A DNA stretch of 64,000 bases, from positions 1 to 64,000 of the forward strand of contig CAMZDG010000012.1 of NCBI GenBank assembly GCA_947305245.1, written 5' to 3'. The stretch is from an uncultured Lachnospiraceae bacterium. GTDB lineage: Bacteria; Bacillota; Clostridia; Lachnospirales; Lachnospiraceae. The number at the start of each line of letters is the position of its first letter. Positions within the stretch are counted from its first letter, which is position 1. Below the pieces are notes generated by a model. It was given only the letters and a program-made list of their open reading frames with translations. It was not told where the DNA came from and searched no databases. A program made the position numbers and the translations under genes. Below, piece by piece: positions 17,287-33,034 of this stretch.

Positions 17287-17331
17287 TAGAGAACGAACAA
17301 AGTGAACTCATACGAAAAGCGAGGGAATGAA

Positions 17332-18621: not shown

Positions 18622-18626
18622 GAACC

Positions 18627-18812: not shown

Positions 18813-18842
18813 GAAAAACGAGCAGAGAAGGTTTCATTTGAT

Positions 18843-18978: not shown

Positions 18979-19704
18979 ATGTTAACAATTGGGATTTGTG
19001 ATGATGAAGCATCCTACCGTGAGCTCATAAGATCGTTCTGCAGTCAGTACTTAAACACTTGCAAACAAGAGCATCAGTTTGTTGAGTTCTCTTCGGGAGA
19101 GGAAGTGCTGTCCTATCAGGGAGATAAGATCCATTTGCTGTTTCTGGACATTGAAATGTCGGGAATGGACGGGCTGGAGGTCATGGAGAAGGTGCGCGGG
19201 AACGATCTGATCTGGCGGATCGCGTTTGTGACCAGTCATAAAGAATTGAAATGGGATACCATTGACTTAAAGACCCTGGCCTTTTTGGAGAAGCCCGCGG
19301 ACAAGATCGGCGTGGAGACCTGTCTGAGAACAGTGATCCGCGAAAACAGGGAAAACATAGACATTTCCTTTAAGACCATCACCGGAGAGTGCTTTATGAA
19401 GCTGGATGAGATCATTTTCATCCGCGCGCAGGGAAATTACGTGAACATACGCTCCAAGGAGAGCGAGCTGATGGGATATGACAGCATAAAGACAATGGAG
19501 GAGCAGATTAAGGGAACCACCATGTTGCGTGCGCATAAATCCTATCTTGCAAATCTCCAGTACGTAAGAAAGATCAATCGGGACGAGTTACAGATGACGA
19601 ACGGACTGCAGGTTCCGCTGGGAAGAAAGTATTATCAATCCGTGAAGGAAGCCTATCATGCCTTCCTCAAAAACGTTGCCCTTGACAGAAGCAAAAGAGC
19701 CTGA
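18979..19704 (+). CDS. LytTR family response regulator (AgrA/ComE type)
   Basis: 241 aa. The receiver domain (1-120) has the acidic pair CDDEAS, phosphoacceptor Asp in LFLDIEMSGMDG and Lys in FLEKPAD. The LytTR DNA-binding domain (140-235) shows FIRAQGNYVNI, RAHKSYLANL and PLGRKYYQSVKEAY. This class binds two direct repeats spaced about two helical turns, matching the repeats at 18627 and 19797. RBS GGGGAGGA lies upstream. A possible promoter is TTGTCA (18930-18935), 17 bp, TATAGA. Its own terminator follows. Most likely the partner of the kinase at 17332 and activator of the peptide gene and lasso operon (inference). Confidence 0.9.
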   Translation: MLTIGICDDEASYRELIRSFCSQYLNTCKQEHQFVEFSSGEEVLSYQGDKIHLLFLDIEMSGMDGLEVMEKVRGNDLIWRIAFVTSHKELKWDTIDLKTLAFLEKPADKIGVETCLRTVIRENRENIDISFKTITGECFMKLDEIIFIRAQGNYVNIRSKESELMGYDSIKTMEEQIKGTTMLRAHKSYLANLQYVRKINRDELQMTNGLQVPLGRKYYQSVKEAYHAFLKNVALDRSKRA

Positions 19705-19739
19705 TCGAGGGAAAAGATCTGAAGGGAAAAGCCATCAAA

Positions 19740-19787: not shown

Positions 19788-19796
19788 TTGATTTTG

Positions 19797-19865
19797 TGTC
19801 GTTCATCCAAAAAAAGTGTCGTTCAACATTGAACAGTTGAAAATTGAATTTGGGGGCTTGATAAT
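19797..19865 (+). promoter_or_regulatory. LytTR-type operator and promoter of the lasso-peptide operon
   Basis: Direct repeats TGTCGTTCATC (19797-19807) and TGTCGTTCAAC (19817-19827), 20-bp period, then 9 bp, -35 TTGAAA (19837-19842), 17 bp, -10 GATAAT (19860-19865). Predicted start of transcription is near 19872, which places the true start of the next gene at 19907. Confidence 0.75.
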
Positions 19866-19906
19866 GAGATTGTAAGCAAGAGATGCAAAGGAAAGGAAAG
19901 AGAAAA

Positions 19907-20872
19907 ATGAAAGAATTACCTTTCAAATTTCCGCCAATGGGAACCTATCAGGGAATGGCATTTGTCATGGGGATCCTGCTGGCAGATCCGACGAAGGATA
20001 AGGTGAGATGGAATCATTACGTGAATTTGCAGTGCGTAAAGACGGAGCGCCTGACGAACGCAAAGTTAACCTTCACGGATGCCCTGTGGGAGGAATACCG
20101 ACTGGAAGGTCTCGCGGAGATGAGCCTGTACGACGTGGCCAACTTTAATGCCGAAACGCTGGAGCGATTCCTCTGTGAGCGGATTGATCAAGGAAATTAT
20201 CTCTTGCTGTATGACATCGACGAATACTACCTTTCCTATACGGAAGCATTTGAAAAGGAACATTACAATCATGACACTTACGTGTATGGCTACTCGGAAA
20301 AGGACTTTTTGGTTTTTGCCTACAGAAAGGAACATTTAGCTTCCTTTCCCGTTCCAAAGCAGGAGATCATAAACTCCCTGCTAAGCAATCAGGCCTACAA
20401 GAATCTAAACTTCCGAAGAGATTTTTGTACCTTCCGGCCGAGCGTCAACCGATCCGTCAGACTGGATCGGAAAAAGATCCGCAGGGAGATCCAAAATTAT
20501 CTGGAACGGCGTACCTTAGGGAAGGCGGAAGAAAACAGAGCCTATGGACTGGCGGTATATGACGTGTTGCTGGAAGGCCTGGATCGCTTAAGCGCGAGCG
20601 GAAGCCTAAATCACTTAGACCTGCGGCCGTTTCGCTGCCTGATGGAGCATAAGCGCATCGCCCGGGACAGGGCTGCCGTTCTTATCAAGGCGCAGGATCC
20701 GCTGATCCTTCGGGCTGGATCCATGGTGGAGCAGGCAGAGATCATTTTTCGGTTGATGATGAAGTATAATCTGACTTTTGACAAAAACGCCTTAAGGAAG
20801 GCAAGGGCAAGGATCGAGCAGCTAAGAAAGGAGGACGAGGCATGGTGTAAAGAGTATCTGGAGCAGATGTAA
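19907..20872 (+). CDS. C39-like/BtrH_N-like protein of unknown function, first gene of the lasso operon
   Basis: 321 aa, soluble, no signal peptide. Residues around 90-140 (GNYLLLYDIDEYYLSYTEA and then KEHYNHDTYVYGY) resemble the conserved core of the BtrH N-terminal/papain-like C39 fold seen in many NRPS, PKS and RiPP clusters, with the His of the YNHD motif in the catalytic-His position. I cannot identify a nucleophilic Cys in the expected N-terminal position, so activity is uncertain. The C-terminal ~150 residues are helical and charged. BtrH itself moves an acyl group from an acyl carrier protein onto an amine, which is suggestive because an ACP is encoded later in this operon, but this is only a weak fold-level match. 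Start ATG 19907 has AAAGGAAAG upstream; ATG 19883 is too close to the predicted transcription start. Confidence 0.45.
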   Translation: MKELPFKFPPMGTYQGMAFVMGILLADPTKDKVRWNHYVNLQCVKTERLTNAKLTFTDALWEEYRLEGLAEMSLYDVANFNAETLERFLCERIDQGNYLLLYDIDEYYLSYTEAFEKEHYNHDTYVYGYSEKDFLVFAYRKEHLASFPVPKQEIINSLLSNQAYKNLNFRRDFCTFRPSVNRSVRLDRKKIRREIQNYLERRTLGKAEENRAYGLAVYDVLLEGLDRLSASGSLNHLDLRPFRCLMEHKRIARDRAAVLIKAQDPLILRAGSMVEQAEIIFRLMMKYNLTFDKNALRKARARIEQLRKEDEAWCKEYLEQM

Positions 20873-20879
20873 GACGGGG

Positions 20880-20922
20880 AGTCGTTCACGTGCTCTGGTC
20901 GGTTAAAAAAGTGTTATATAAT
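20880..20922 (+). promoter_or_regulatory. possible internal promoter of the lasso precursor gene
   Basis: A perfect -10 TATAAT (20917-20922) lies 69 bp before the precursor ATG, with no good -35 17 bp upstream (TCTGGT). A single half-site match GTCGTTCA occurs at 20881-20888, but no second half at 20-bp spacing, and its distance to the -10 differs by 6 bp from the two clear operators. Confidence 0.35.
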
Positions 20923-20991
20923 AAGCCCCCCCAAAAAAATATAGACAGAAAACAAAACTATAATTCAAAACATATTGGGAGGAAAAATTTT

Positions 20992-21147
20992 ATGAAGAAT
21001 ATCGAGTATAAGAAGCCTTCATTCTTTAAGCTGGGTGACGTTGCGGAGCTGACCAAGGGCTCTGGTTCCAAGAATACTGAAACGATCGAGGTTGGTGCTT
21101 GCTGCATCATTCATGGTTCCTATTCCGTAACCATTCCTTTTAACTAA
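20992..21147 (+). CDS. lasso peptide precursor (A protein)
   Basis: 51 aa with RBS GGGAGGA. The leader (residues 1-22) fits the lasso recognition pattern: Tyr6, Pro9, Gly15 and Thr21 have the same spacing as Y..P.....G.....T. in lariatin-type leaders, Thr21 being the conserved penultimate leader residue. Cleavage after Lys22 gives a 29-residue core that begins GSGSKNTE. Gly1 and Glu8 can form the macrolactam (8-residue ring). The tail contains a vicinal Cys pair (core 15-16, in GACC), His19, Tyr22 and two Pro/Ser/Thr-rich stretches, and ends PFN with no C-terminal Ser. Encoded just before B1, C and B2 genes, which confirms the class. The ring prediction is inference from pattern only. Confidence 0.85.
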   Translation: MKNIEYKKPSFFKLGDVAELTKGSGSKNTETIEVGACCIIHGSYSVTIPFN

Positions 21148-21162
21148 ATCGAAAAAAACAAT

Positions 21163-21191
21163 TTGATCTGATAGGGGAGCAGGCTTATTAT
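21163..21191 (+). promoter_or_regulatory. weak promoter-like signal between precursor and biosynthesis genes
   Basis: TTGATC, 17 bp, TATTAT in the 97-bp gap after the precursor gene. It could let precursor and enzymes be expressed in different amounts. No clear terminator is visible in this gap. Confidence 0.3.
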
Positions 21192-21244
21192 ATAATACTT
21201 TTTTAGTCGATCAGAGAGACTTTGTATGAGAAAGGAAAGATTGC

Positions 21245-21511
21245 ATGAAATACTTTATCAATTCAAAAGTGAAGGTGGCACAGGCTGACAATGATACCTA
21301 TGTCATGTTAGACGGACAATATTATGTGTTAAACGAGATCGCAAGGTTGACCCTGCAGTGCTTCGCAAAGGGAGCCACGCCGCAGGAGGCCGTGGAAGAA
21401 ATGGTCAGGGAGTTTGAGGGTGAGGCCGATCCTGATCAGGTTAGGGCGGATTGTGAAGAATTGATGGGATATTTACTGGAAAGCCAGATGATCATCGAGG
21501 AGAAGGCATAA
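21245..21511 (+). CDS. PqqD-like RiPP recognition protein (B1 type), first copy
   Basis: 88 aa winged-helix RiPP recognition element: beta-strand segment VKVAQADNDTYVMLDGQYYVLNEIA matches the PqqD N-terminal hairpin (with the LD/LN pair), followed by helices ending in LMGYLLESQMI. Such proteins bind the precursor leader and present it to the modifying enzymes. It sits directly before the radical SAM gene (11 bp), so it may serve that enzyme, whereas the second copy at 25674 lies next to the B2 peptidase. RBS AAAGGAAAG. Confidence 0.8.
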   Translation: MKYFINSKVKVAQADNDTYVMLDGQYYVLNEIARLTLQCFAKGATPQEAVEEMVREFEGEADPDQVRADCEELMGYLLESQMIIEEKA

Positions 21512-21522
21512 AGGAGACTTAA

Positions 21523-22557
21523 ATGAGCATGCAGGTAGACGGAGCATACATCGAGATTACTTCAAAATGCAATATGAAATGTAAACAATGCTATAACGAT
21601 TCTGAGCAGAGAAATAACAAATTCGTGACGAGGGAAGAGTATGTAAGGACCATGAAAGCTCTCGTGGAGCATGGGTGTAAAATCATCGTGATCAGCGGCG
21701 GAGAACCGCTCCTTCATCCTGACCTGACTTGGATGTTGGAGAGTGCGCATGAGCTTGGCGTAGAGGAGATCAGGGTTGTCACAAACGGTATGCTTTTTCT
21801 GCCTGAATTCGCGGCAAAAATGAAGGAACTTGGCGCGACGCTTTTGATCAGCATGGATGGTCCCACGGCGGAGACATACGGCATTCTTCGTGACGGACGA
21901 AACTTTCGGAGAGTGAAAGAAAACGTCGAGCGGTATGCGAAGGAATGCATCGTGGAGTTTAACCTGATCATGTGCAAGGGGAATGCGGAAACCTTAGTTG
22001 CCATGGCAGATTTTGCGGATCAAAACGGGATTAGGACGATCAATCTGCTGAATCTCCAGTGCATCGGACGTGCGACGGATTTTTATGATGAGGTGGCACT
22101 GGACGGCGCTGAGATGGAAAAATTCCGAAACGCGATCGTGGAGATCGTGAACAAGTATCCCGGACTGAGCGTGAAGGGGAGCGTGAACCCGTTCGAGGGC
22201 GTTCACTGCAGGCATCTTCTTCGCGACAGGGGAATGGCACACTATTTAAGGATAGACAGTCACGGAGATTTTTTTCCTTGCGACAGCTCCAAGTGTCCTA
22301 TCGGAAAGATGACGGAAGAGGATCCTTCTGGAGTTTTCGAGAAGATGGCGAGCTGCGCTTCCCGCGAAGTTAGGAAAAAAAGCGTGGAGCTATATGGCCA
22401 ATGCAAAAATTGTGAAGCAAGGAGCGTTTGTTCCAAGGGGTGCCCGCTGATGTTCGAAGATCAGGAACAGATGAAGGCATACTGCGAAGATTTTCGCAGA
22501 ATTTATCATAAATCTAGAAAGGCGATGGAGACCATTGCAGCGGTGAGCATGGGATGA
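21523..22557 (+). CDS. radical SAM/SPASM peptide-modifying enzyme
   Basis: 344 aa. The [4Fe-4S]-SAM site CNMKCKQC (CxxxCxxC) lies at residues about 15-22, with SGGEPLLHPD as the GGE SAM-binding motif. The C-terminal SPASM region (about 230-320) carries FFPCDSSKCP, a CKNCEARSVCSKGC block and a final YCEDF Cys, enough to ligate auxiliary clusters. SPASM proteins encoded next to a PqqD-like protein typically install thioether, C-C or epimer modifications in RiPPs. The product here is unknown; the precursor core offers a Cys-Cys pair. Overlaps the next gene by 4 bp (ATGA). RBS AAGGAG. Confidence 0.88.
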   Translation: MSMQVDGAYIEITSKCNMKCKQCYNDSEQRNNKFVTREEYVRTMKALVEHGCKIIVISGGEPLLHPDLTWMLESAHELGVEEIRVVTNGMLFLPEFAAKMKELGATLLISMDGPTAETYGILRDGRNFRRVKENVERYAKECIVEFNLIMCKGNAETLVAMADFADQNGIRTINLLNLQCIGRATDFYDEVALDGAEMEKFRNAIVEIVNKYPGLSVKGSVNPFEGVHCRHLLRDRGMAHYLRIDSHGDFFPCDSSKCPIGKMTEEDPSGVFEKMASCASREVRKKSVELYGQCKNCEARSVCSKGCPLMFEDQEQMKAYCEDFRRIYHKSRKAMETIAAVSMG

Positions 22558-23513
22558 AATACTATTACGCGTTTGGCATTGTGATCGGATGTAATCTTGA
22601 ACTTCCGCTTCCGGAATATCCAGGAGAGGAAAAGGATTGTCTGGAAATCCGGCTGCTGGAAAAGAGCGTCGAGGTTCCGGATGGATTTGTTTTGAGAAAT
22701 AGTTTCCTCATCGAAGGGAATGGCGACGATGACATGGGATCCTACTATGAGAGGGGCGACGAAAAATGGGTTCGCTATCAGGCGGTCTGTGATTTCTGGA
22801 TCCGTCCCCTGGAGCAAAAAATGGATTGCTATTATCGGGTGCCTGAGAATCTGGAGCTGGCGGAGATCTATCTGCTCTCTGACTGCATCAGTGCCTACTT
22901 GCGTCACGTAAAACAATATGTGTTCCATGCGGCTGCCGTAAGACTTGGAAATAAAAGCTATGTCTTCAGCGCGGAAAAGGGCGGCGGGAAAAGCACTCTG
23001 CTTGCCTCACTGGTAAATAGCGGCGGCGACGTCATTTCGGATGATCTTGTTCCTCTTTTTCTTGCAGAGCAGGGAGTGATGCTTCGCAGCAGTTTTCCCA
23101 GCGTGAAACTGAATTCAGGGCAGTTTCCCCTGGCGACTGACTGGATCAGCGATGCAAGGCCCGTGCTGAAGGGATCTCTCAAGAAAAGCTGCACGTTAAA
23201 GTCGGAGCGCTATGCCGAGGGAGATTTCCCGTTGGATGCATTTTTTGTCATCCACCCTGTGACGGCGGATGAGCCCATTCAGGTTAGAAAGCTGAATGCG
23301 GCAGAAGGATTTGTGGCGCTTTTGCAGTGCATCTTCAGCGGAACGACAGCTTCGAACAGTGAGATCATTGCATATCAAAAAGTCATTCGCCGCATCTTAA
23401 AAGAGAACTTGGCATTTCAGTTGGACATTCCGAGAGATTTGGAGCAGTTGCCAAACGTGATCGACGTCCTAAAGCATTTCGATAACGGGAAAGAGGAGAG
23501 CAAAAATGGGTGA
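22554..23513 (+). CDS. HPr-kinase-like (lasso-peptide kinase type) protein
   Basis: 319 aa, related to the C-terminal half of HPr kinase/phosphorylase. Residues about 125-165 have the conserved HAAAV followed by AEKGGGKSTLL (P-loop) and then DVISDDLVPL (metal-binding Asp pair). In paeninodin- and thermobacillus-type clusters such kinases phosphorylate the C-terminal Ser of the lasso precursor. Here the precursor ends in Asn, so the acceptor must differ (internal Ser/Thr/Tyr) or the protein has another role. Overlaps the radical SAM gene by 4 bp and the cyclase gene by 8 bp. Confidence 0.8.
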   Translation: MKYYYAFGIVIGCNLELPLPEYPGEEKDCLEIRLLEKSVEVPDGFVLRNSFLIEGNGDDDMGSYYERGDEKWVRYQAVCDFWIRPLEQKMDCYYRVPENLELAEIYLLSDCISAYLRHVKQYVFHAAAVRLGNKSYVFSAEKGGGKSTLLASLVNSGGDVISDDLVPLFLAEQGVMLRSSFPSVKLNSGQFPLATDWISDARPVLKGSLKKSCTLKSERYAEGDFPLDAFFVIHPVTADEPIQVRKLNAAEGFVALLQCIFSGTTASNSEIIAYQKVIRRILKENLAFQLDIPRDLEQLPNVIDVLKHFDNGKEESKNG

Positions 23514-25248
23514 GATCTACATATGGGCTGATAAGCAGGGGCAAAAGAGGGATTATGATCATATCAGGGACATCCTGTTGGAACAGGATGCCGCCTTTAT
23601 GGAATACGACAAAAAGAAGATCAGTTATCTGCGAGAGGAGAATGGCTTTGGCCTTCTGATTTCGGCACTGGAGGCAGACATTCGGCAAGGGAACCTGGAC
23701 GTCTACGTGGACGGACATATAGAGAATCTGCCGGAGCTGCGAAAGGAGCTGCAGCTGAGCCCGTCAAGCAGCACGGAAGCAGTTGTGAGGACCGCGTATG
23801 AGAGATGGGAAGAGGAATTTCCAAGCCGTCTAAAGGGAGATTACGCCATTGTTCTAAGAGATAAAAGCAAAGAGCAGTTCATTTGTGCGCGGGCTCCCTT
23901 TGGTGTGAAGGCAATGTATTACTATCTGGATGAGTCCGCCTGCGTGTTTGCAACGAGCCAGCAAAAGGTTCTTGCCTTAAAGCTTCTTCCAGTGAAGTTT
24001 AACTGGGAATATGTGGCGGAGTATTTTGCAAATCACGAGACGTCTGTCGTGAAAGAAACGCCCTACTGTAACTGGCGCGTGGTACTGCCCGGGGAAAGCC
24101 TGATCATCAGGAAAAATGACGCAAGAAGGATCGCTTTGTGGCAGCCGAGAGTACTAAAGCATACACTGGGAGAGCGCGAGACAATCGAGAGATTTCGGGA
24201 TCTTTTTGTCGATTCCGTGAAGAGGAAAATCTGCGACAATGTCTTTCCGGATTATAACTTCTTTTTGAGCGGCGGACTGGATTCCTCCTCCATCGCCTGC
24301 GCATTTCTTCACATACCTGATTTTGATCCCAAGAGGCTTCACATATATCACGATTGCCATAAAGAGGAAATTGATGAGTATGAGATGTTAAAGCGCGGGA
24401 TAGACGACGAAGCCATTCTGGCACAAAAGATCTGTGAGAGGCTTGGTACGCCGCTTCACTTAAGAAATGGCAGCCAAAAAAATAATCTTCTGAAGGATTT
24501 TGAACCGTTGCAGGATTTCGCGGATCCAGATATTAACATTCTGTATGGGCATTCAAAGTGGACGGGAGAGAAAATACCGAACTACCCATTCATCACGGGA
24601 TTTGGCGGAGATCAGGTGGCAGGCAGGGTCGTAAACATTGATCGCAATCATCAGATCAACCAGTCCCAGTATGACATGCACATGTATGAGATCTATGAAG
24701 AGTGTCTGAAGCCTGAATTTGTGACACGCTATAGTCTTCGGGACCGCGTGAACGGGAAAGAGGGATTGGGAAACTACAAGACGGAATCGCAAAACATTCA
24801 GTGGAAGACCATCTTTCAGAATGGTCAGGGCGTGGGAAGACAGCAAGGGTATCGATTTGAAATAGTTTCGCCCTTTCATGACATTGACCTGGTGGAGTAT
24901 TGCGTAAACTTACCAGACAAGTATTTTAACAGGAAGGGTGTAGGAAAGTATATCCTCAGGAAGGCGTTCGAAAAGGATCTCCCGCCGGAAATCTTTATCC
25001 GCAAGGGAAAGGGAACGCACGTCCATACGGCCTATGAAGGCATAAAGGATAACTGGGGAAGCATAGAAAAGAGATATGATCACCTAAAGCTGGCAGAATA
25101 CGGGATCGTGGACAAAGAGAAGTTCATCGGCATGATGCAAAGATTCCGGTATGGCACGGAGTATCACTCTCTTCACGTCATGAAGCTGTTGGCACTGGAA
25201 TTATGGCTTGAGAGCAAGCAGAGCGTTTTCGAAGGAGTAATGGGATGA
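23506..25248 (+). CDS. asparagine-synthetase-like lasso cyclase (C protein)
   Basis: 580 aa. An N-terminal Ntn-like domain lacks the catalytic Cys2 of glutamine-dependent AsnB (begins MGEIYIW), as usual for lasso cyclases. The ATP-pyrophosphatase domain has FFLSGGLDSSSIACA (PPi loop) and GFGGDQ. It adenylates the ring-forming Asp/Glu side chain and closes the macrolactam with the new N-terminus. Region 380-580 contains the family's conserved SPFHDIDLVEYC and RKAFEKDLPPEI segments. Overlaps the B2 gene by 4 bp, which argues for coordinated production. Confidence 0.93.
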   Translation: MGEIYIWADKQGQKRDYDHIRDILLEQDAAFMEYDKKKISYLREENGFGLLISALEADIRQGNLDVYVDGHIENLPELRKELQLSPSSSTEAVVRTAYERWEEEFPSRLKGDYAIVLRDKSKEQFICARAPFGVKAMYYYLDESACVFATSQQKVLALKLLPVKFNWEYVAEYFANHETSVVKETPYCNWRVVLPGESLIIRKNDARRIALWQPRVLKHTLGERETIERFRDLFVDSVKRKICDNVFPDYNFFLSGGLDSSSIACAFLHIPDFDPKRLHIYHDCHKEEIDEYEMLKRGIDDEAILAQKICERLGTPLHLRNGSQKNNLLKDFEPLQDFADPDINILYGHSKWTGEKIPNYPFITGFGGDQVAGRVVNIDRNHQINQSQYDMHMYEIYEECLKPEFVTRYSLRDRVNGKEGLGNYKTESQNIQWKTIFQNGQGVGRQQGYRFEIVSPFHDIDLVEYCVNLPDKYFNRKGVGKYILRKAFEKDLPPEIFIRKGKGTHVHTAYEGIKDNWGSIEKRYDHLKLAEYGIVDKEKFIGMMQRFRYGTEYHSLHVMKLLALELWLESKQSVFEGVMG

Positions 25249-25655
25249 GGATAATTACAAAACTTGCTTTGAAAAGAATCAACAAGAAATTGAATCAGCA
25301 GGGAATGGAATATGCGGACCGTTTCCTCGAAAAATGTAACAAAAGAAGACGCCACGTCCGCACGGCGACACAGGAAGAAGTGGAATTGATGAAGGCCCTG
25401 GCATGGAAGATCAATGACGTGGCAGCCACGCTGAGACTCACCTCGCCGTGCATCTGCAGATCCCTTTGGTGTTATAAGCAGCTCGCGGGGAAATATGGCG
25501 TAGAGATGATCATCGGTGTGAAAGGATATCCGTTTGAAGCGCACGCGTGGATCGAGTATAATAAAGAGGTGATCAATGACACGGAAGAACACGCTCGCGG
25601 ATATATTGTTTTTGAGGGCGTTTCGGCGAAGGATTTGATCACCGCCCAGGCATAA
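25245..25655 (+). CDS. lasso peptide biosynthesis B2 protein (leader peptidase, transglutaminase-like)
   Basis: 136 aa, papain-like transglutaminase fold that removes the leader. The triad residues are visible: Cys in SPCICRSLWCYK (around residue 66), His in EAHAWIEYN and Asp in VINDTEEH. IIGVKGYPFEAHAW matches the family core. B1 is not fused. Starts with ATGA overlap to the cyclase. Confidence 0.93.
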   Translation: MRIITKLALKRINKKLNQQGMEYADRFLEKCNKRRRHVRTATQEEVELMKALAWKINDVAATLRLTSPCICRSLWCYKQLAGKYGVEMIIGVKGYPFEAHAWIEYNKEVINDTEEHARGYIVFEGVSAKDLITAQA

Positions 25656-25673
25656 AACAGGAGGAGAATAAAG

Positions 25674-25979
25674 GTGGAGAGGGAGTTTAACTATAATGTT
25701 GCGGAGCACGAACTGACGCTGCTTGGCGAAGAAGAGGCGGAGTTTAGTAAAAAGGCGGAGGATGGCGGCATTTTATATTTATTCGCAGACCGCAGCTTTC
25801 AGTCTTTGGATTTCACGGCCTGCATCATGTGGAACGTGATCAGTCAACATCATTCCTTTCAAAAGGCAAAAGAGGAGATCCTCAAGGTTTTTTGCGCGGG
25901 GGACGACCAGGATGTTTCCGGTGACGTCAGTGATTTCTTTGATTTCCTGACGGAAACGGGTGCCATCCAAGTGATTTAA
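25674..25979 (+). CDS. PqqD-like RiPP recognition protein, second copy
   Basis: 101 aa starting at GTG 25674 with GGAGGA 8 nt upstream. The C-terminal half (DFTACIMWNVISQHHSFQKAKEEIL and then FFDFLTETGAIQVI) fits the PqqD helix and final strand pattern, and an acidic N-terminus precedes it. Divergent from the copy at 21245. Its position after the B2 gene makes it the likely B1 of the leader-peptidase step. Confidence 0.65.
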   Translation: MEREFNYNVAEHELTLLGEEEAEFSKKAEDGGILYLFADRSFQSLDFTACIMWNVISQHHSFQKAKEEILKVFCAGDDQDVSGDVSDFFDFLTETGAIQVI

Positions 25980-26014
25980 GCTTTTCCATCATAAAGAATT
26001 GGGAGTGACGGTCC

Positions 26015-27805
26015 ATGGCAATCAAAGAACAATTGAAAAAATATGGCCAGATCAAAAAGAACTGGAAAACAATTTTATCCTTCTTTTTCAAGTATAACGA
26101 CAAAGCAGTGATCGCTCTGTTTGTTGTGAGCGGCGTGAGCGCCCTGACAGGCGTGGCGTTCACCTATCTGCTGAGTCAATTCGTTAATGAGGCGGGATCC
26201 CTGCTTACGGGAGAGCAGGGAACGGCTCTTTGGCTGCTTGGAGGCATTTTGGGGCTTGCCGTCATGGCATATTTAGCGATGACCCTTCGAAGTGCACTCA
26301 CTAGAAAAGTGATCGCGGATAGTACGGAGCGCATTCAGGGAGAGGCCATTACGTTCGCCTGCTCGGATGATTACCTGCATTTTATCTCCAAGGAGCAAAA
26401 GGATAAGCATCTCTTTCTGATGAATGTTTCCAACAGTACGAATCGGGCGATCTTAAATGGCGTTACGGGTTTTATCAGCGGTTTTTTCACCATTCTTGGA
26501 GGCATTGGCATCTTATTCTCCGTCAGCGGCTGGGCATCCCTCGTGATGACGGTCCTGATGATCATTTCCTGCCTCTACGTGGAAAACAACAACGGCCGAA
26601 AGCTCATGGAACTGTTCGGGAATACCATCATGGAGAGCCGGAAGCTGAATTATTTCACGGAATTGTTGACGGGAAACGGATATGCCTGTGAAAAGTCCTT
26701 GTTTGGATACTCGGAGCAGATGCACGAGCGCATGAAGCAGGTCAATGACGAGATCGTCTCTCAAAAGGAAAAGACGACAAAGCGGATCTCCCGAAATACC
26801 ATGCTGTTTCGCCTGTTCTATTCGTTTACCTATTTTATCTTTGTGCTATGCGTGTTCCTGAGCGGGAACATTCACGACGCCGGTACCATTTTCCTGGCGT
26901 TTAGCATGACAAAAAGCATTGTGCAGGCAGCGACGGCAGTCGGAAAGAGTCTTTCGAACACTTATATTCAGGCAGGGTATATTGAAAAGTTCAACGATTA
27001 TCTGGCAAAGGGCACGACCAGTCAGGCTTCGCACGTTTCGAAGACGGAGGCGGCTTTGCCGCAGCCTAGTCAGGATGACGTCATCGCCGTTCGGAATCTG
27101 ACGTTCCGGTATTATGAGAACGCGCCAGTGCTCCAGGATGTCTCCTTTACCATCCACAAGGGAGAGACGGTGGCCATCGTGGGAGAAAACGGCGCAGGAA
27201 AAACAACCCTGGCGAACATCTTGCTCGGACTATTGTATTCTGGCGGAAGCGTGCTGGTAAATGGCGTGGATCCGTATGAAGATCTGATGGCACAAAAGAA
27301 GGAAAGCGGGATCGTTTCCGTGATGCAGAATTTTGGCCGGTACAACGGCATCAGCTTAAAGGATAACATAACTTTTGGGGAGCCGCTTTCAGAGGAACTG
27401 CAAAAGAAGGTTGAGGCCATCTTTGGAGAGAATAAGGACCAGACGCCAGAGAGCATCATGGGAAATGAATTCGGAGGAATCGGTGCATCTGGCGGACAGT
27501 GGCAGAAACTGGCACTTCTCAGAGGACAAAGAAAGCAAGGGATCGTGTTGTTGGATGAACCTACGGCATCCCTGGATCCTCGTTCGGAGGCCACGATCCT
27601 GCGGGAATTCATGACGGAAAGTGCCGGAGAGAACACCAAGCTGATCATCACGCACAGGCTTGGCTGCACGAAATACGCGGACAGGATTCTTGTCCTGGAT
27701 CACGGTACCATTGCAGAGAACGGCAGCTTCGACGAATTGATGGCAAGGAAGGGAAAGTATCACGAGATGTATACGGCGCAGGCCGAGCTATATCAGATTT
27801 CATAG
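26015..27805 (+). CDS. ABC exporter half-transporter, first of a pair
   Basis: 596 aa, TM domain with about six helices (residues 30-330) and NBD (350-596). Walker A GENGAGKTTL, Q-loop VMQNFGR, signature ASGGQWQKLAL and Walker B GIVLLDEPTASLD are present. No C39 peptidase domain. With the next gene it probably forms a heterodimer exporting the mature lasso peptide and conferring self-resistance (family knowledge of lasso D proteins plus position). ATG follows GGGAGTGA. Confidence 0.9.
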   Translation: MAIKEQLKKYGQIKKNWKTILSFFFKYNDKAVIALFVVSGVSALTGVAFTYLLSQFVNEAGSLLTGEQGTALWLLGGILGLAVMAYLAMTLRSALTRKVIADSTERIQGEAITFACSDDYLHFISKEQKDKHLFLMNVSNSTNRAILNGVTGFISGFFTILGGIGILFSVSGWASLVMTVLMIISCLYVENNNGRKLMELFGNTIMESRKLNYFTELLTGNGYACEKSLFGYSEQMHERMKQVNDEIVSQKEKTTKRISRNTMLFRLFYSFTYFIFVLCVFLSGNIHDAGTIFLAFSMTKSIVQAATAVGKSLSNTYIQAGYIEKFNDYLAKGTTSQASHVSKTEAALPQPSQDDVIAVRNLTFRYYENAPVLQDVSFTIHKGETVAIVGENGAGKTTLANILLGLLYSGGSVLVNGVDPYEDLMAQKKESGIVSVMQNFGRYNGISLKDNITFGEPLSEELQKKVEAIFGENKDQTPESIMGNEFGGIGASGGQWQKLALLRGQRKQGIVLLDEPTASLDPRSEATILREFMTESAGENTKLIITHRLGCTKYADRILVLDHGTIAENGSFDELMARKGKYHEMYTAQAELYQIS

Positions 27806-27835
27806 ACAAGGAAAACGGGAAAGGAATCAAGGGCC

Positions 27836-29617
27836 ATGAAAAAGAGCAAAGAAAAGAATGGACAGCCCAGCATGCGGATTCTTCCGAGAATCATAAAGCT
27901 ATTGTTCCGGCACGTGCCTGCGTGGTCACTGGCTATCGTTCTCATTATGGTGCTACAGGGCGTGCTTCCGGTGTTGAACCTTTATTTGATCGGCCGGTTT
28001 GCCGGGATCTTGGTTGAAAACCAGTTTATGCTGACGCGGGAAGCAGTGACCTATGCCATTTTGGTGGCGATCACTTTCTGCTTTGACGCCATGTGCGCGG
28101 AATGTAACAACCTGATCAGAGTGCAGGCCTCTTATCGAATGGAATATCGCCTGCGCAAAGAAATCATAGATCAAGTTGAAAAATTGGACATAAGATATAA
28201 GGAGCAAAACGAGTATCAGACCATTGTCAGCAGGGCAAATCAGGCGGTAACGCCCATGGAATTGTTTAACTTCCTGGACATGATAAGCACCGTTACTTCA
28301 GCGCTGATCACCATGGCTGGCGTGATCGCATTGCTGCTTCGCGTGAATTTCGTCATTCCGGCCTTTCAGCTTCTGGTGCTTGTCTTCTGCGCCTGGATCA
28401 TGAAGAAAACGGCGCAAATGATGAATCGCGTATTCGAGAAGACAAATCTGGAGGAGAGAAAAACTTCTGCCATTTCTTCGTGGTTCATTACGGATCACAA
28501 TAATGCAGAGATGAGGATCTTTCGGTCCACTCAGTGGTTTTTTGCCCTGTGGAAGGATCTGTTTCGAAAAGTGAACCGAAAAAAGAATCAGGGAATTACC
28601 AAGATCGAAGCGTTGCAGGGACTGTCACAGATATTAATGTCGATCCTTCCGGTGCTTTCTCTCGTCATCTATCTGCTCATGAGGGGAACGGTAAGCCTGG
28701 ATCTGGCAGAGGACGTGATCAATATCTTCAACTCCTGTAATACGATGGCGACAAGCGTACTCATGTTGATCACGGTGGCCGGACTGCTTTCGGGGCGAAT
28801 GGTTAATTTCGCAAATTTCTTCCGGTTGTTTGACATTCAAGCGGAACCTGCAAGACAAGAGGGGGAGGCGTGTTCCAAGGCAACGATCCTGCTTCGGGAT
28901 TGTACGTTCAGGTATGATGAAAAAGACGCATCCTCTAAGGCGGCGGTGGATCACGTAAACTTAAGACTGGACAGCGGTAAGGTTTATGCCATCGTGGGAG
29001 AGAACGGAAGCGGTAAGTCAACGCTGGCGAAATTGCTTCTTCAGCTCTATCATCCGCAGGAGGGAACGATGGAAGCATATAATGAGGCCGGAAAGAAGGT
29101 GACGCTTCGTGCCACTACCGTGATGCAGGATTTTGCAAGATATGATCTTTCGCTAAAGGATAACATTCTCCTTGGTGATTTCAAGGCCAAAGAGGATGTG
29201 GATGCTTATCGGGCGGCCATGGAAGACGCATCCTGCCTGCAAGTGGCAGAAAAGATCGGAGAAGACACCGTATTGGGGAATCGGTTTGGTACCGTGAATC
29301 CTTCCGGAGGAGAATGGCAGCGACTGGCCGTCGCAAGAGGCTTTTTTAGAAAGAACTGTCCGCTGGTCGTATTCGATGAACCGGACGCGAGCCTAGATGC
29401 GCTGGCAGAAGCAAATATTATCAAGAACATGGCATCGAATTGTCGGAATGGCATTTGCGTGTTCATTACGCACCGTCTTGCTTCCGTAAAATACGCGGAT
29501 CAGATTCTGGTCATGAAGGACGGACGGCTGGCGGAGCAGGGAACCCATCAGGAACTGACGGCAAAGGACGGCATCTACAAGGAGATGTTTTCAGCGCAGA
29601 TCGGCTGGTATCAATAA
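27836..29617 (+). CDS. ABC exporter half-transporter, second of a pair
   Basis: 593 aa with the same domain order: TM domain (30-340) and NBD with GENGSGKSTL, VMQDFARYD, PSGGEWQRLAVARG and LVVFDEPDASLD. The Asp after the Walker B Glu motif is normal; Walker B reads VFDEP, so ATPase residues look intact in both halves. About 30 bp after the first transporter and 30 bp before the nucleotidyltransferase gene. Confidence 0.9.
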   Translation: MKKSKEKNGQPSMRILPRIIKLLFRHVPAWSLAIVLIMVLQGVLPVLNLYLIGRFAGILVENQFMLTREAVTYAILVAITFCFDAMCAECNNLIRVQASYRMEYRLRKEIIDQVEKLDIRYKEQNEYQTIVSRANQAVTPMELFNFLDMISTVTSALITMAGVIALLLRVNFVIPAFQLLVLVFCAWIMKKTAQMMNRVFEKTNLEERKTSAISSWFITDHNNAEMRIFRSTQWFFALWKDLFRKVNRKKNQGITKIEALQGLSQILMSILPVLSLVIYLLMRGTVSLDLAEDVINIFNSCNTMATSVLMLITVAGLLSGRMVNFANFFRLFDIQAEPARQEGEACSKATILLRDCTFRYDEKDASSKAAVDHVNLRLDSGKVYAIVGENGSGKSTLAKLLLQLYHPQEGTMEAYNEAGKKVTLRATTVMQDFARYDLSLKDNILLGDFKAKEDVDAYRAAMEDASCLQVAEKIGEDTVLGNRFGTVNPSGGEWQRLAVARGFFRKNCPLVVFDEPDASLDALAEANIIKNMASNCRNGICVFITHRLASVKYADQILVMKDGRLAEQGTHQELTAKDGIYKEMFSAQIGWYQ

Positions 29618-29647
29618 GCGGTGCAAAAGAAGGAGAGGAGCCAGGAA

Positions 29648-30535
29648 ATGCAAGAGGATTTCTTATATCAGATGGTCAGCAGGGAAAGGCACAGACAGGT
29701 TGCGGAAGTACTCTCTGAGGTGAAAGTCCCTTACGCCATTATCAAGGGAGAAGCGTTATCCTATCATGCCTATGGGAAATTTGGCAAGAGGAGATCGTCT
29801 GACGTCGACATTCTAGTGTCCAGAAAAAATCGTGACGTGATCAGGGACGCATTTCTAAGGCACGGCTTTTCCATGAAAGGGAAAACGCGTGCGGAGATCG
29901 TACAGGCAAATCTCTATACGCATCAGATGATCCCACTGACCAAACCGTCAAAATACGAGGAGATGGCCGTCGACGTGAATTTCGACATTTTCTGGGGGGA
30001 ATACCAGGGAGTAAGGGTTGACGTGGACAGATTCCTAGAGCATACCGTGCCGATGAAGATTTATGGATATGAATTTCAGGTGCTCCCTCATGAAAAGGCC
30101 ATGGTGCAGCTGATCCTACACCACTACAAGGAAATGAATTCCATTTTCCATCTTATGACGCATGACAGCTTTAACGTAAAAATGCTGGATGACGTTTATT
30201 ACTACGTAAAATCCTGGAAGAACGTGTTCACGCCGGAAGCGATCTGGCGCGTCATGCAAGTATATGGGATTGCGAAGTATGCTTATTATGTATTCTATTA
30301 TGTGGCAAAGGTGCATCCGGACGGGGAGATCCTAAAGATCAGGGACGCATTGTATTCGGAGGAGGCGGAAAAGCTGCTGAATCGATACGGCCTGGAGGAG
30401 GAAGAGTACGGAGAGTGGGAGGTCGGGTTTGAAGAACGGCTGAAAAGTGAGGATCTGTCGCAGTTTTTGAAACATAAACTCAGCAAGAAAAGCATGGAAA
30501 AACTAAATCAAAATGTTGCCATATTTCTTTCTTGA
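29648..30535 (+). CDS. nucleotidyltransferase-fold protein (PF14907-like)
   Basis: 295 aa. The motif KRRSSDVDILVSRKN holds the DxD metal pair of the nucleotidyltransferase fold, preceded by IKGEALSYHAYG. Proteins of this family recur in RiPP and lasso clusters; in pseudomycoidin a homologue glycosylates the phosphorylated lasso peptide. Together with the kinase-like gene it suggests a phosphorylation-dependent tailoring step (inference). Start ATG 29648 chosen: AAGGAGAGG lies 9 nt upstream. GTG 29621 has no such site. Confidence 0.75.
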   Translation: MQEDFLYQMVSRERHRQVAEVLSEVKVPYAIIKGEALSYHAYGKFGKRRSSDVDILVSRKNRDVIRDAFLRHGFSMKGKTRAEIVQANLYTHQMIPLTKPSKYEEMAVDVNFDIFWGEYQGVRVDVDRFLEHTVPMKIYGYEFQVLPHEKAMVQLILHHYKEMNSIFHLMTHDSFNVKMLDDVYYYVKSWKNVFTPEAIWRVMQVYGIAKYAYYVFYYVAKVHPDGEILKIRDALYSEEAEKLLNRYGLEEEEYGEWEVGFEERLKSEDLSQFLKHKLSKKSMEKLNQNVAIFLS

Positions 30536-30556
30536 GCAAAGGAGGGAGGAAAAAAG

Positions 30557-30778
30557 ATGATTGAAAAGAAAGTGACTACTGAGGATGGAAAGGTGATCAA
30601 GGAAACAAGAAGAGGGATCAACTCGGGAGATGTTGTCAAGGGCGGGGTTACGTTTGGCAGTTGTCTGGCAATGATCCTTTCTTACGTCAAGTGGAATTCC
30701 ATTCTTTGGGCGATCCTGCACGGGATCTTAAGCTGGGCATACGTGATTTATTTTGCGATCAAATATGGTTTACAGTGA
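30557..30778 (+). CDS. small two-TM membrane protein
   Basis: 73 aa with strong RBS (GGAGGGAGG). A basic, hydrophilic N-terminus (residues 1-26) precedes two hydrophobic helices (about 28-46 and 48-70) rich in Trp, Leu and Ile. No recognised family. Position inside the lasso operon after the exporters makes it a candidate immunity or transport accessory protein, which is only inference. Confidence 0.7.
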   Translation: MIEKKVTTEDGKVIKETRRGINSGDVVKGGVTFGSCLAMILSYVKWNSILWAILHGILSWAYVIYFAIKYGLQ

Positions 30779-30799
30779 TCGCACGGAGTGTGAGGTAAA

Positions 30800-31228
30800 A
30801 TGAGAATTCACCATGTGGGAGTCGTGACGTCCAACATGGACAGAAGCATAACGATATACGAAAAGCTGGGATACCGCAAAGCAGTGGACGTGATTGATCC
30901 GTTTCAGAATAACCGGATCGTGATGATGGATCGCGGAGAGGGTGTCATGATCGAGTTGATCTGGCCCGCGAATGAACAGTCCACGGTGCGGAACTTCTCG
31001 GATGGCTATCATCATTTATGTTATGAGATGGAACCGGGGGAGGATGTCGGTCAGGGTTTTAAACGGTTGCGCATTGGGAAGATATTCACCGAACCGATTA
31101 CGGCTCCGGCGTTCGATGGTCGTAAAGTCGTGTTTGCCTGTTTATTGGATGGATCATTTATTGAATTCATATTGTGCGAGGAAGGAGAAAAGAAAAATGA
31201 AGTCCGTAACGATGGGAGAAGTCATTGA
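30800..31228 (+). CDS. VOC-family (glyoxalase/methylmalonyl-CoA-epimerase-like) protein
   Basis: 142 aa with duplicated beta-alpha-beta-beta-beta modules. Metal-ligand candidates are the His of IHHVGVV, Glu in MIELIWP, His in GYHHLCYEM and Glu in FIEFILCE. VOC proteins catalyse epimerisation, isomerisation or dioxygenation of small metabolites. Here it belongs to a VOC-ACP-FkbH block, overlapping the ACP gene by 32 bp, so a role in making or moving a C3 unit is likely (inference). ATG follows GAGGTAAA. Confidence 0.75.
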   Translation: MRIHHVGVVTSNMDRSITIYEKLGYRKAVDVIDPFQNNRIVMMDRGEGVMIELIWPANEQSTVRNFSDGYHHLCYEMEPGEDVGQGFKRLRIGKIFTEPITAPAFDGRKVVFACLLDGSFIEFILCEEGEKKNEVRNDGRSH

Positions 31229-31469
31229 AGTACTGAATGCAGCGGGAGAGTTATCCTTAACGGAGGAGCAAAAGGAGACGGACATTACCGAGCTTGGCAT
31301 CGATTCCATTGCGTTTATAAAGGTGGTTGTCGCATTGGAGGAGCAATTCGATTGTGAGATTCCGGATTCGAAGCTGATCCTCTCGGACATGAATACGCTT
31401 CAGAAGATTTATGAGACGATGGATGCGTTGTATGAGGAGACGATGGGAAGAGACAACCTGTCGGCCTGA
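31197..31469 (+). CDS. standalone acyl carrier protein in the lasso operon
   Basis: 90 aa. Ser of the phosphopantetheine attachment site is in LGIDSIAF, within the usual helix-2 context; VVALEEQFDCEIPDSKL is the acidic recognition helix. Different from the housekeeping AcpP at 59607 (LGADSLDIVEL). Start at ATG 31197 with AAGGAGAAAAG upstream and a 32-bp overlap with the VOC gene. It is likely charged by the adjacent FkbH protein. Confidence 0.85.
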   Translation: MKSVTMGEVIEVLNAAGELSLTEEQKETDITELGIDSIAFIKVVVALEEQFDCEIPDSKLILSDMNTLQKIYETMDALYEETMGRDNLSA

Positions 31470-31492
31470 GAATGGGACGGAGAGTGGCGAGC

Positions 31493-33034
31493 ATGTATGA
31501 ATTAGCATTTATTTCCAATATCCATTTTGAACCATATCTGTGCGCCGCGCTGATGCATGCTTTTTCCAAGACAAGAAAAGATCTGGAAGTCAAAGTGATC
31601 CAATATGAAAATCTGATCGAGCGGAAGGCGGAATTGGAAGGGGCGGACATGATTGTCGTTTGCCTGAATTTTTCAGACTGGTATCCCAATGCGCAGATCG
31701 ATCTGGCACAGAGGAGGATTTCACGGCAGGAGATCAAGGAGGCCGCATTAGTCAGATGCGAGATCCTGCGCAGAGAGCTCAATAACGTAAAGGTGCAGAT
31801 CCTTTGGTTTGGATTCGAAGACGATGAATATCCCAGCGCGGCCGTATGCGGACAATCCCCCGTCATGGAAGGGCTGGTGGATGAGATCAATCAGGCACTG
31901 CTTTGGCAATTGAAGGATGTTACGTTCCTTGACTTTAAGAAGCTGATCGCGCAGGTGGGGATCGGGAATGCTTACAGCCTAAAGGGAAGACTTCGCTGGA
32001 ATGCCCCTTATTCCAAACAGTTGGCCGGTCTTCTCGCAGATGAGATTTACAAACAATATCTGATCGCGCGCGGAAGGACGCCAAAGTGTTTAGTGCTGGA
32101 CTGCGATAACGTTCTTTGGGGTGGCGTTCTGGCGGATGATGGAATTGAAGGCATTTGGCTGGGGAGCGACGGATTGGGACGGCAGTTTCAGGAATTCCAG
32201 CGTTTTGTGAAGTTTTTATGGCTACACGGAGTAATCCTTGCAATCTGTAGCAAAAACAATCAAGAGGACATTCTGCGCGTTTTCCGGGAGCACGGAGGAA
32301 TGCTCCTAAAAGAGGGAGACGTGGCCTGTTTTCAATGTAACTGGGAGCCCAAGGCGGGAAACATTCTTGCCATCTCAGAGAGATTAAACATTGGATTGGC
32401 AGACATGGTATTTGTGGATGATTCGGTATTTGAAGTGGAAGCGGTAAAGGCGCAGCTTCCGGAAGTAAGGACGGTCCTTTATCAGAAGGAAACCATTTAT
32501 GATTCCTTGGGCTGCTTTCATTTAAGGACCTCTGTTGACCAGCATGAAAACCTGCTTCGCACGAAAACCTATCAGAGCAATGAAAAGCGGGCAATCCTGC
32601 GCGAGCAGACGGGATCGTTTGAAGAATACCTTGAGTCTCTGGACATGAAGCTGGACATTCATGAAACCTTGGATTCGGAAGTGGCCAGAGTGGCGGAATT
32701 GACGCAAAGGACCAATAAATGTACGAATGGCACGAGATATTCGAAGGAAGAAATCCTTGGGAAAAAGGCGTTGACGGATTATTCTTTCTATACGGTTTGT
32801 CTCTCAGACAGGTTTTCCGATCTGGGGATTGTAGGCATCCTCGGGATGTGTGACAAAGAGATCGATCTATTCTCTCTTTCCTGTCGCGCGTTGGGCAGGA
32901 AGGTGGAAGAAAGGCTGATAGAGTTTGCAGTGAACAAAAAGGCGAAGAGGATCCAGTTTGTCAAAACGCCGAAAAATGAATGGATGCATCCCTTGTTGGA
33001 AAAGTGGGGAGTGCAGATTACGGAAAGCGCATAA
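31493..33034 (+). CDS. FkbH-type HAD-IIIC protein (glyceryl-ACP synthase family)
   Basis: About 513 aa. An N-terminal SGNH/GDSL-like region (1-200) is followed by the HAD domain with LVLDCDNVLWGGVLADDG (nucleophile DxD and the LWGG signature of the FkbH group) and FVDDSVFEVEAV. A C-terminal GNAT-like section (about 385-513) completes the usual order. Characterised members transfer a glyceryl group from 1,3-bisphosphoglycerate to an ACP. Directly downstream of an ACP, so a glyceryl-S-ACP product is the default prediction. Start ATG 31493 has GGAGAG upstream. Last gene of the lasso operon. Confidence 0.85.
   Translation: MYELAFISNIHFEPYLCAALMHAFSKTRKDLEVKVIQYENLIERKAELEGADMIVVCLNFSDWYPNAQIDLAQRRISRQEIKEAALVRCEILRRELNNVKVQILWFGFEDDEYPSAAVCGQSPVMEGLVDEINQALLWQLKDVTFLDFKKLIAQVGIGNAYSLKGRLRWNAPYSKQLAGLLADEIYKQYLIARGRTPKCLVLDCDNVLWGGVLADDGIEGIWLGSDGLGRQFQEFQRFVKFLWLHGVILAICSKNNQEDILRVFREHGGMLLKEGDVACFQCNWEPKAGNILAISERLNIGLADMVFVDDSVFEVEAVKAQLPEVRTVLYQKETIYDSLGCFHLRTSVDQHENLLRTKTYQSNEKRAILREQTGSFEEYLESLDMKLDIHETLDSEVARVAELTQRTNKCTNGTRYSKEEILGKKALTDYSFYTVCLSDRFSDLGIVGILGMCDKEIDLFSLSCRALGRKVEERLIEFAVNKKAKRIQFVKTPKNEWMHPLLEKWGVQITESA

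Follow-up and report, generated by a model that had tools for sequence, protein, structure and literature searches.

A predicted lasso peptide operon of an uncultured Lachnospiraceae bacterium and a putative acyl-carrier tailoring cassette shared with other ribosomal peptide clusters

Lasso peptide clusters of the paeninodin and pseudomycoidin type comprise a precursor, split B1 and B2 genes, a macrolactam cyclase, an HPr-kinase-like (HPrK-like) kinase, a PF14907 nucleotidyltransferase (NTase) and an ABC exporter. Paeninodin-type kinases modify a C-terminal Ser. The available part of the pseudomycoidin report links hexose addition to the NTase (PMC9266682). In the system of linear polyphosphorylated peptides (LPP), according to the available part of its description, kinase activity was reported and deletion of the NTase had no detectable effect, for which the authors propose a missing partner or a rare substrate; lasso and LPP clusters are there described as neighbours (PMC13381572). 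Here, we analyzed a gene island in a 64,000-nt stretch of DNA from an uncultured Lachnospiraceae bacterium (contig CAMZDG010000012.1 of assembly GCA_947305245.1, positions 1 to 64,000; hereafter the window), where an earlier note had described a lasso peptide operon with an unusually large tailoring set. The island shares the genes listed above with paeninodin and pseudomycoidin clusters, but its NTase falls in another clade, its predicted core ends in Asn rather than Ser, and radical SAM, acyl carrier protein (ACP), FkbH, VOC and BtrH-like genes are added. With LPP, as far as that system is covered by the available text, it has in common the HPrK-like kinase, the NTase, a discrete recognition element (RRE) for ribosomally synthesized and post-translationally modified peptides (RiPPs), a YxxP leader and an exporter. 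Unlike LPP, it has a B2 peptidase and a lasso cyclase, an archaeal-type signal peptidase is absent from the window genes scanned, and the main text of PMC13381572 nowhere mentions radical, SPASM or acyl carrier. In the literature searched, we found no report of a lasso peptide combined with radical SAM and FkbH, no description, among the titles listed, of acyl or glyceryl decoration of a lasso peptide by such genes and, judged by the listings of partly available sources, no RiPP with FkbH and an ACP as tailoring proteins.

The reading that we favor, with modest confidence, is that the island (17302-33034, forward strand, from a GHKL histidine kinase through FkbH) makes one lasso-type peptide, which is decorated by a tailoring cassette common to other RiPP clusters. 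The lasso part is favored because a leader model, the B2 and cyclase matches and a single fitting core register coincide, and the one-unit part because of gene overlaps, intergenic gaps of no more than 35 bp, low GC content at third codon positions (GC3) and a perfect repeat that occurs once in the genome, ahead of the operon. The cassette part is favored because NTase, ACP and FkbH genes are adjacent in three other loci (L148, L240 and L241), each time near radical SAM, kinase-like and BtrH-like genes, and because the NTase and FkbH of the window fall inside the clade of these loci, with only L148 among the best 80 of at least 584 FkbH relatives having NTase or BtrH. The gene set of the operon is real, and a recurrent cassette accounts for part of its odd composition; the chemistry and the product are predictions from sequence.

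The leader of the precursor carries the RRE motif YKKPSF. Lasso precursors have Thr at position -2 and an acidic residue at core position 7-9, and the sole register with both takes Thr21 as -2 and E8 as the acidic residue. These rules therefore leave one predicted core, GSGSKNTETIEVGACCIIHGSYSVTIPFN, with a ring from Gly1 to Glu8 and a tail of 21 residues (computed monoisotopic mass, minus the macrolactam water, 2965.395). Between 19600 and 33300, this precursor is the one plausible small open reading frame (ORF) with an RRE motif and a ribosome-binding site; the other motif match lies inside FkbH. The cyclase keeps the ATP-pyrophosphatase motif SGGLDS and begins Met-Gly, without Cys2. An RRE-motif precursor with Thr(-2) and the acidic residue, a Cys2-less cyclase and both B1 and B2 are thus found together, as in lasso clusters, and the predicted product of the island is a single lasso-type peptide. 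The earlier note had identified the cluster from precursor, cyclase and B2 peptidase; the leader model, the above-cut-off B2 and the cyclase match agree with it, and every gene that it named was found on the forward strand.

The cyclase is divergent. No relative at E 1e-20 was detected among 60 other genomes of the genus, and searches of 99, 295 and 398 genomes (overlapping draws) gave other matches at 28-36% identity, mostly over parts of the query. Cyclase matches at L036, L037 and L039 were rejected as lasso loci, with no other operon gene by tblastn and ORFs that begin Met-Cys, as in asparagine synthetases. A scan of genome contigs with the cyclase returned 18 pattern matches and no relative, a result of little weight given that its six patterns were not selected for conservation; among plasmids, 197 records matched, all below 60% identity, and the 15 listed span 23-29%. 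The product might then not be a threaded lasso at all, the divergent cyclase making some other amide or being a relic beside an LPP- or sactipeptide-like linear peptide. This we regard as very unlikely: the lack of a close cyclase relative in those genomes and the long tail would suit it, as would B2 loci without a cyclase (14 of 25, described below, among them L035, which has B2, RRE, radical SAM, kinase and NTase), but the ATP-pyrophosphatase motif is intact, the leader and the Thr(-2)/Gly1/Glu8 register fit, and B2 scores above its cut-off.

That these genes form one pathway was argued in the earlier note from overlaps of 4-8 bp running from radical SAM to kinase, cyclase and B2. The overlaps measure 4, 8 and 4 bp, with a further 17 bp between VOC and ACP; gaps stay within the 35-bp limit throughout from the RRE gene to FkbH, and the first gene past FkbH starts at 33049 on the opposite strand. 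The 10 island ORFs of at least 200 aa have a mean GC3 of 0.59 (0.56-0.63), lower than that of 30 other window ORFs (mean 0.68, 0.57-0.76; Mann-Whitney p 4.6e-5), and this difference makes a common, perhaps foreign, origin of the island probable. The one-pathway claim thus holds in so far as the genes are arranged like a single transcription unit and lie in a single low-GC3 island. The island also includes genes that the earlier note had not mentioned: the BtrH_N-like gene, the genes for the histidine kinase and the LytTR regulator, and those for two ABC transporters.

The perfect direct repeat TGTCGTTCA-N11-TGTCGTTCA starts at the first base of the span that the earlier note had given for the operon. 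Eleven bases 3′ of it lies a promoter-like TTGAAA-17-GATAAT (19837-19865); with 27 promoter-like matches, the region does not stand out clearly from shuffled sequence (mean 18.5, sd 3.9). With up to three mismatches allowed, the repeat pattern occurs at two sites in the 3.34-Mb genome (94.6% complete), the perfect one and one with two mismatches (18627-18655) between the kinase and regulator genes. Since a reversed control pattern likewise has two matches in the genome, we give weight only to the perfect site and to where the two sites lie. The LytTR regulator may control the operon via the perfect repeat, and the imperfect one may serve autoregulation.

To see how the gene set compares with other B2 loci, we used a B2 profile, which matched in 13 of 398 genomes of the phylum and 18 of 285 of the order, window included. 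Outside the window, 26 places (12 phylum, 14 order) scored above the cut-off, and 25 of these were inspected over lengths of up to 20 kb (five are shorter; G723 was omitted, and three sub-cut-off rows, G342, G293 and G045, were dropped). Gene types were assigned with profiles built here, which are circular at the loci that seeded them (window, L148, L240, L241 and some others, plus L026 and L035 for kinase, radical SAM and PqqD), where the independent evidence is the Pfam and NCBIfam values. HPrK was found at 19 of the 25 loci, PqqD at 17, NTase at 13 and radical SAM at 4. FkbH, ACP, VOC and BtrH were found at none of the 25, and the combination that the earlier note had called unusual is so by this count. 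A cyclase-like ORF is present at 11 of them (phmmer with the window and L026 cyclases), and six (L091, L095, L097, L098, L099 and L102) match no profile; B2 loci are therefore not all proven lasso or RiPP loci. Of the 13 loci L090-L102, 11 lack a cyclase-like ORF, and kinase, PqqD and WxxP precursors occur in some of them; in this order, B2-type peptidases may therefore work for non-lasso RiPPs. L035 (2458-10411; B2-RRE-radical SAM-HPrK-ABC-ABC-NTase, a 36-aa two-Cys precursor and no cyclase match) seems to be a B2-type RiPP locus and not a lasso one.

The radical SAM matches at B2 loci are those of L026, L035, L033, where the gene stands among molybdenum-cofactor genes (by eye), and L092, where it lies ~7 kb off on the other strand. 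In L026 (5275-16486), a lasso cluster adjoins an LPP-like one, with three PqqD-like genes, three HPrK-like genes and two precursors in all. The second RRE-motif precursor follows the radical SAM gene, ahead of a kinase-like gene and a signal peptidase (by eye); the radical SAM gene therefore probably belongs to the LPP-like cluster, and L026 is weakened as a lasso with its own radical SAM. L026 thus does place radical SAM, kinase and NTase genes next to a lasso cluster, part of the combination that the earlier note knew from no described lasso peptide, but with a second precursor there, whereas the window has one plausible precursor. By analogy with L026, the radical SAM enzyme of the window could serve a second, unseen precursor, and the weak second RRE of the window and the lasso-LPP neighbourhood in the available part of PMC13381572 agree with this. 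We nevertheless think it quite unlikely: the operon has just one plausible ORF that combines an RRE motif with a ribosome-binding site, the window genes scanned include no signal peptidase, and the core has two Cys, as do those predicted for L148, L241, L035 and the second precursor of L026. This last point is a weak one: the putative core of L240 is Cys-rich, and the L027 and L094 precursors have at least two Cys without a radical SAM match, so the correlation with two-Cys cores is weak.

The radical SAM enzyme itself shows, by eye and regex, a CX3CX2C motif and a seven-Cys SPASM pattern. Its best NCBIfam match is the sactipeptide maturase StsB (1.6e-29), far under cut-off as are all its NCBIfam matches, and 145 plasmid records matched it, all below 60% identity. 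A radical SAM/SPASM maturase together with Cys in the core is the combination found in sactipeptides and ranthipeptides, and the enzyme would likely form thioethers on the adjacent Cys15 and Cys16 of the predicted core.

Relatives of the remaining tailoring genes were sought with a profile seeded with the FkbH of the window, three others from its bacterial family and one from a plasmid, and the best 80 of at least 584 relatives in the contig scan were surveyed (23 of the 80 loci are under 15 kb). The best match of these 80, L148, from the metagenome-assembled genome (MAG) Oscillospiraceae bacterium SIG427, is 45% identical over residues 7-510 (E 2e-143; the second, 3e-66). Within these 80, NTase, BtrH, PqqD and radical SAM were found only in L148, HPrK in 2, ACP in 9 and VOC in 20 (within 250 bp of FkbH in 13); weak cyclase matches in L182, L189, L195 and L227 were rejected as lasso, the best ORF of each beginning Met-Cys and being asparagine-synthetase-like. 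On one strand, L148 encodes an HPrK-like kinase, a two-Cys RRE-motif precursor, PqqD, radical SAM/SPASM, YcaO, a signal-peptidase-like protein (best NCBIfam match archaeal type, TIGR02228 1.8e-10, under cut-off), NTase (41%), ACP (59%), FkbH, three BtrH-like proteins, two further ACPs, an AMP-ligase and an ABC exporter. The kinase, RRE, radical SAM/SPASM, NTase-ACP-FkbH, BtrH-like genes and two-Cys core are common to L148 and the window, whereas YcaO and the signal-peptidase-like gene replace cyclase and B2, and the extra ACPs and AMP-ligase are peculiar to L148. By tblastn, L148 gave no match to cyclase, B2 or VOC, and cyclase and VOC were also negative by profile or phmmer. At 5695-8542 and 17955-19121, L148 further has two MutS-like genes, within the cluster, and a SAM synthetase gene, which stands immediately after the exporter and perhaps supplies the radical SAM enzyme (all by eye).

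The window NTase matched in 4 of 112 L148-related genomes (that of L148 included) at E<=1e-15, in six places. At five of these, FkbH adjoins the NTase or lies within 2 kb: L148, L240, L241 twice (one NTase partial) and L244, with an intervening gene. L245 and L233, the latter a remoter second NTase of the L148 genome, have ACP, AMP-ligase and BtrH in place of FkbH, which fits an acyl-ACP donor with a varying acyl group. L240 has NTase, ACP, FkbH, weak HPrK-like and BtrH-like genes, a small Cys-rich ORF and a 472-aa radical SAM whose nearest matches are Cys-rich-peptide maturases. In L241, HPrK, radical SAM/SPASM, NTase, ACP and FkbH occur together with a signal peptidase-PqqD fusion; a two-Cys precursor lies upstream of them, and a weak BtrH-like gene follows downstream on the opposite strand. 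Signal-peptidase-like genes, as in LPP, are thus present in both L148 and L241. The kinases of the three loci match NCBIfam at 3.6e-11 (L148), 7.7e-13 (L241) and 4.8e-4 (L240), none near cut-off. No VOC was found in any of the three. Elsewhere in L241 (3455-9111), a LytTR-type regulator, a histidine kinase and what we take to be AgrB-like and AgrD-like genes are neighbours of the partial NTase and of a short FkbH; a quorum-sensing system may accompany the cassette there.

The trees agree with this picture. In the NTase tree, which omits the partial L241 copy, the window, L148, L240 and L241 form a clade (100/99), joined by L244, L245 and L233 at 99/99, and all 13 B2-locus NTases, 9 of them beside a cyclase, fall outside this ACP-linked clade. 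The FkbH tree (41 of the 79 non-L148 loci of the best-80 set, plus 3 plasmid and 16 family loci) groups the window with L148 and one L241 copy (100/93), then with the other L241 copy and L240 (100/100), then with L244 (88/84), and the 14 VOC-linked FkbHs are scattered elsewhere. The agreement of the two trees indicates that NTase and FkbH travel together, in RiPP-like clusters; the VOC does not accompany them. The NTase precedent in firmicute lasso clusters to which the earlier note appealed does exist, but the NTase of the window stands apart from it. Likewise, the VOC, ACP and FkbH genes that it grouped as a trio are present, yet the recurring block is NTase-ACP-FkbH, and VOC-ACP-FkbH was rejected as one inherited trio, the window FkbH lying outside the VOC-linked clades. 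It had counted linkage of the extra genes to another pathway in relatives as a refutation; such linkage was found, but to RiPPs with the same enzyme types, which therefore favors a shared tailoring system more than it speaks against one. NTase-ACP-FkbH, with kinase-like and BtrH-like genes nearby, occurs with at least three RiPP core machineries besides that of the window, the only lasso case found. It has the appearance of a transferable RiPP-tailoring cassette that a lasso operon has taken up.

Alternatively, the one operon could serve two products, with an ordinary kinase-tailored lasso and a separate VOC-ACP-FkbH glyceryl step on a surface glycan or lipid. A search for FkbH in the same family gave 26 places outside the window, and in 3 of the 16 regions fetched VOC and FkbH occur together, in apparent capsule or flagellin-glycosylation loci (by eye); the VOC counts among the best 80 FkbH loci point the same way. 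VOC-ACP-FkbH modules beside sugar genes, such as L141, have the same three gene types adjacent as the window does, but their FkbHs belong to other clades and their surroundings are of glycan type (by eye). With the FkbH and NTase of the window placed in the RiPP cassette clade, away from VOC-linked FkbHs, and no glycosyltransferase or sugar gene among the island genes scanned, we consider two products unlikely. Among plasmids, 113 records matched FkbH (three were opened and had no other operon gene by tblastn), one matched VOC and none matched BtrH or NTase; viral contigs gave one FkbH at 28% and no NTase.

Proteins of the FkbH family take a glyceryl unit from 1,3-bisphosphoglycerate and load it onto an ACP. 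The FkbH of the window has DCD and SCR motifs, with D210, D212 and C471 invariant in two alignments; the HAD DxD, the conserved SCR and the ACP partner are those of a glyceryl-ACP synthase, and the protein would charge the ACP with a C3 glyceryl unit. In butirosin biosynthesis, BtrI and BtrH are the ACP and the acyltransferase, and BtrH transfers the acyl group from the ACP to an amine; the window likewise encodes a BtrH_N-like protein with an ACP, but differs in its presumed peptide substrate and in a match under the Pfam cut-off. BtrH_N-like relatives were found near ACP genes in L069, L148, L233 and L245. Such proteins recur in the order (L058-L070), often beside ABC exporter genes and sometimes in 2-3 copies per locus; the gene follows an ACP and precedes a phosphopantetheinyl-transferase-like ORF in L069, and lies near radical SAM and adenylation-type genes in L062 (both by eye). 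The kinase, with a P-loop (AEKGGGKS) and a DD motif, is HPrK-like, as in paeninodin-type clusters, though its TIGR04352 score is far under cut-off. In a PDB sequence search, FkbH matched 3slr (4.8e-34), the BtrH-like protein only ribosomal L13 (E 0.22), and neither NTase nor kinase had a match at E 0.1; the AlphaFold model of the NTase has a pLDDT of 59.5. NCBIfam already has a model named 'peptide maturation system acyl carrier-related protein' (TIGR04069), to which the ACPs of the window and of L241 give weak matches; carrier proteins in peptide-maturation loci are therefore not wholly new.

We propose that the cassette probably adds a glyceryl-type acyl group to the peptide. The GHKL kinase would drive the LytTR regulator, which would turn the operon on through the perfect repeat, and the RRE would bind the YxxP leader. 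The radical SAM/SPASM enzyme would act on Cys15-Cys16, most likely forming thioethers, and the HPrK-like kinase, as in characterized relatives, would phosphorylate a core Ser. Glyceryl loaded by FkbH on the ACP, or a derived acyl group, would then be transferred by the NTase and BtrH-like protein, either of which may be the transferase, to the phosphorylated or another free side chain (candidates Ser2, Ser4, Lys5, Ser21 and Ser23). B2 would cut after Thr-Lys, the cyclase would close Gly1 to Glu8, and the ABC pair would export the product; the VOC protein would be a local addition, which may epimerize or otherwise alter the acyl unit. More tentatively, and as something possible rather than probable, HPrK-NTase-ACP-FkbH-BtrH may be a RiPP-class-independent cassette (lasso, YcaO/radical SAM, Cys-rich radical SAM and signal-peptidase type) that puts glyceryl or phosphoglyceryl from a glycolytic intermediate on a phosphorylated peptide.

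Several observations weigh against a cassette-decorated lasso peptide. The predicted tail is long, and the core ends in PFN, without the C-terminal Ser that paeninodin-type kinases modify. Kinase matches are far from cut-offs throughout (NCBIfam 4.8e-4 and 0.0039 for that of L240), and in the HPrK tree the window sits on a long branch whose placement was not obtained. BtrH_N matches are under the Pfam cut-off in the window (26.5 bits vs. 29.7) and in one L148 copy (7.8e-6), a second L148 copy has none, and L240 and L241 give 1.2e-3 and 0.049; the AlphaFold model of the BtrH-like protein (pLDDT 42) was unusable and was discarded. Only three cassette relatives were found (one MAG and two further genomes), L240 has no PqqD match, and VOC-FkbH pairs occur in sugar-gene loci of the same family.

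Table 1. Features of the island in window coordinates, with profile matches (E values unless bits are given).
Feature	Position	Strand	Evidence
GHKL-type sensor histidine kinase	17302..18621	+	PF14501 1.2e-20; GC3 0.59, same as operon
Imperfect direct repeat before regulator gene	18627..18655	+	2 mismatches
LytTR response regulator	18979..19704	+	PF04397 4.8e-18, PF00072 5.4e-12
Perfect direct repeat, probable LytTR site (predicted)	19797..19825	+	
BtrH_N-like protein, candidate acyl-ACP-dependent acyltransferase	19907..20872	+	PF14399 8.6e-6, 26.5 bits, cut-off 29.7 not reached
Lasso precursor, 51 aa	20992..21147	+	NCBIfam NF033521 leader model 22.0 bits, cut-off 19
PqqD-like RRE (B1)	21245..21511	+	PF05402 1.1e-8; NF033530 3.2e-11, under its cut-off
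Radical SAM/SPASM peptide maturase	21523..22557	+	PF04055 1.9e-24
HPr-kinase-like putative peptide kinase	22554..23513	+	TIGR04352 3.3e-7, 29.7 bits vs. cut-off 200
Lasso macrolactam cyclase, divergent	23506..25248	+	NF033535 1.5e-43, 149 bits vs. cut-off 525
B2 leader peptidase	25245..25655	+	NF033537 53.9 bits, cut-off 33
Weak second PqqD-like RRE	25674..25979	+	PF05402 E 0.012, under cut-off; custom PqqD profile 5e-4
ABC exporter	26015..27805	+	PF00005 5.5e-22
ABC exporter	27836..29617	+	PF00005 4.7e-20
NTP_transf_5 NTase, ACP-linked cassette type	29621..30535	+	PF14907 2.6e-22
Small hydrophobic protein, 73 aa	30557..30778	+	no Pfam family; best NCBIfam E 0.064
VOC protein, methylmalonyl-CoA-epimerase-like	30800..31228	+	PF13669 1.8e-13; TIGR03081 8.5e-9, under cut-off
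ACP, GIDS attachment site	31212..31469	+	PF00550 6e-10
FkbH/HAD-IIIC	31472..33034	+	TIGR01686 3.7e-71, above cut-off

Of the two PqqD-like proteins that the earlier note had listed, the first is clear and the second weak (Table 1), the custom profile having been built without the latter protein. The small hydrophobic protein may confer immunity, or may be a small membrane protein with no link to the pathway. Beyond the island, a serpin-family protease inhibitor gene (35389-37383; PF00079 8.9e-55) directly follows an ECF-type sigma factor gene.

The NTase of kinase-bearing lasso and LPP clusters has been puzzling, and an NTase of that Pfam family beside ACP and FkbH offers a concrete donor. If our reading is correct, ribosomal peptides would undergo carrier-protein-dependent acylation with a C3 sugar-acid unit, and the partner that is wanting for the unexplained NTase of LPP and paeninodin-type pathways would be supplied. 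Several RiPP classes would then share an acyl-carrier-dependent decoration, and the window would hold a compact operon that unites such decoration with a lasso fold and the action of a radical SAM enzyme.

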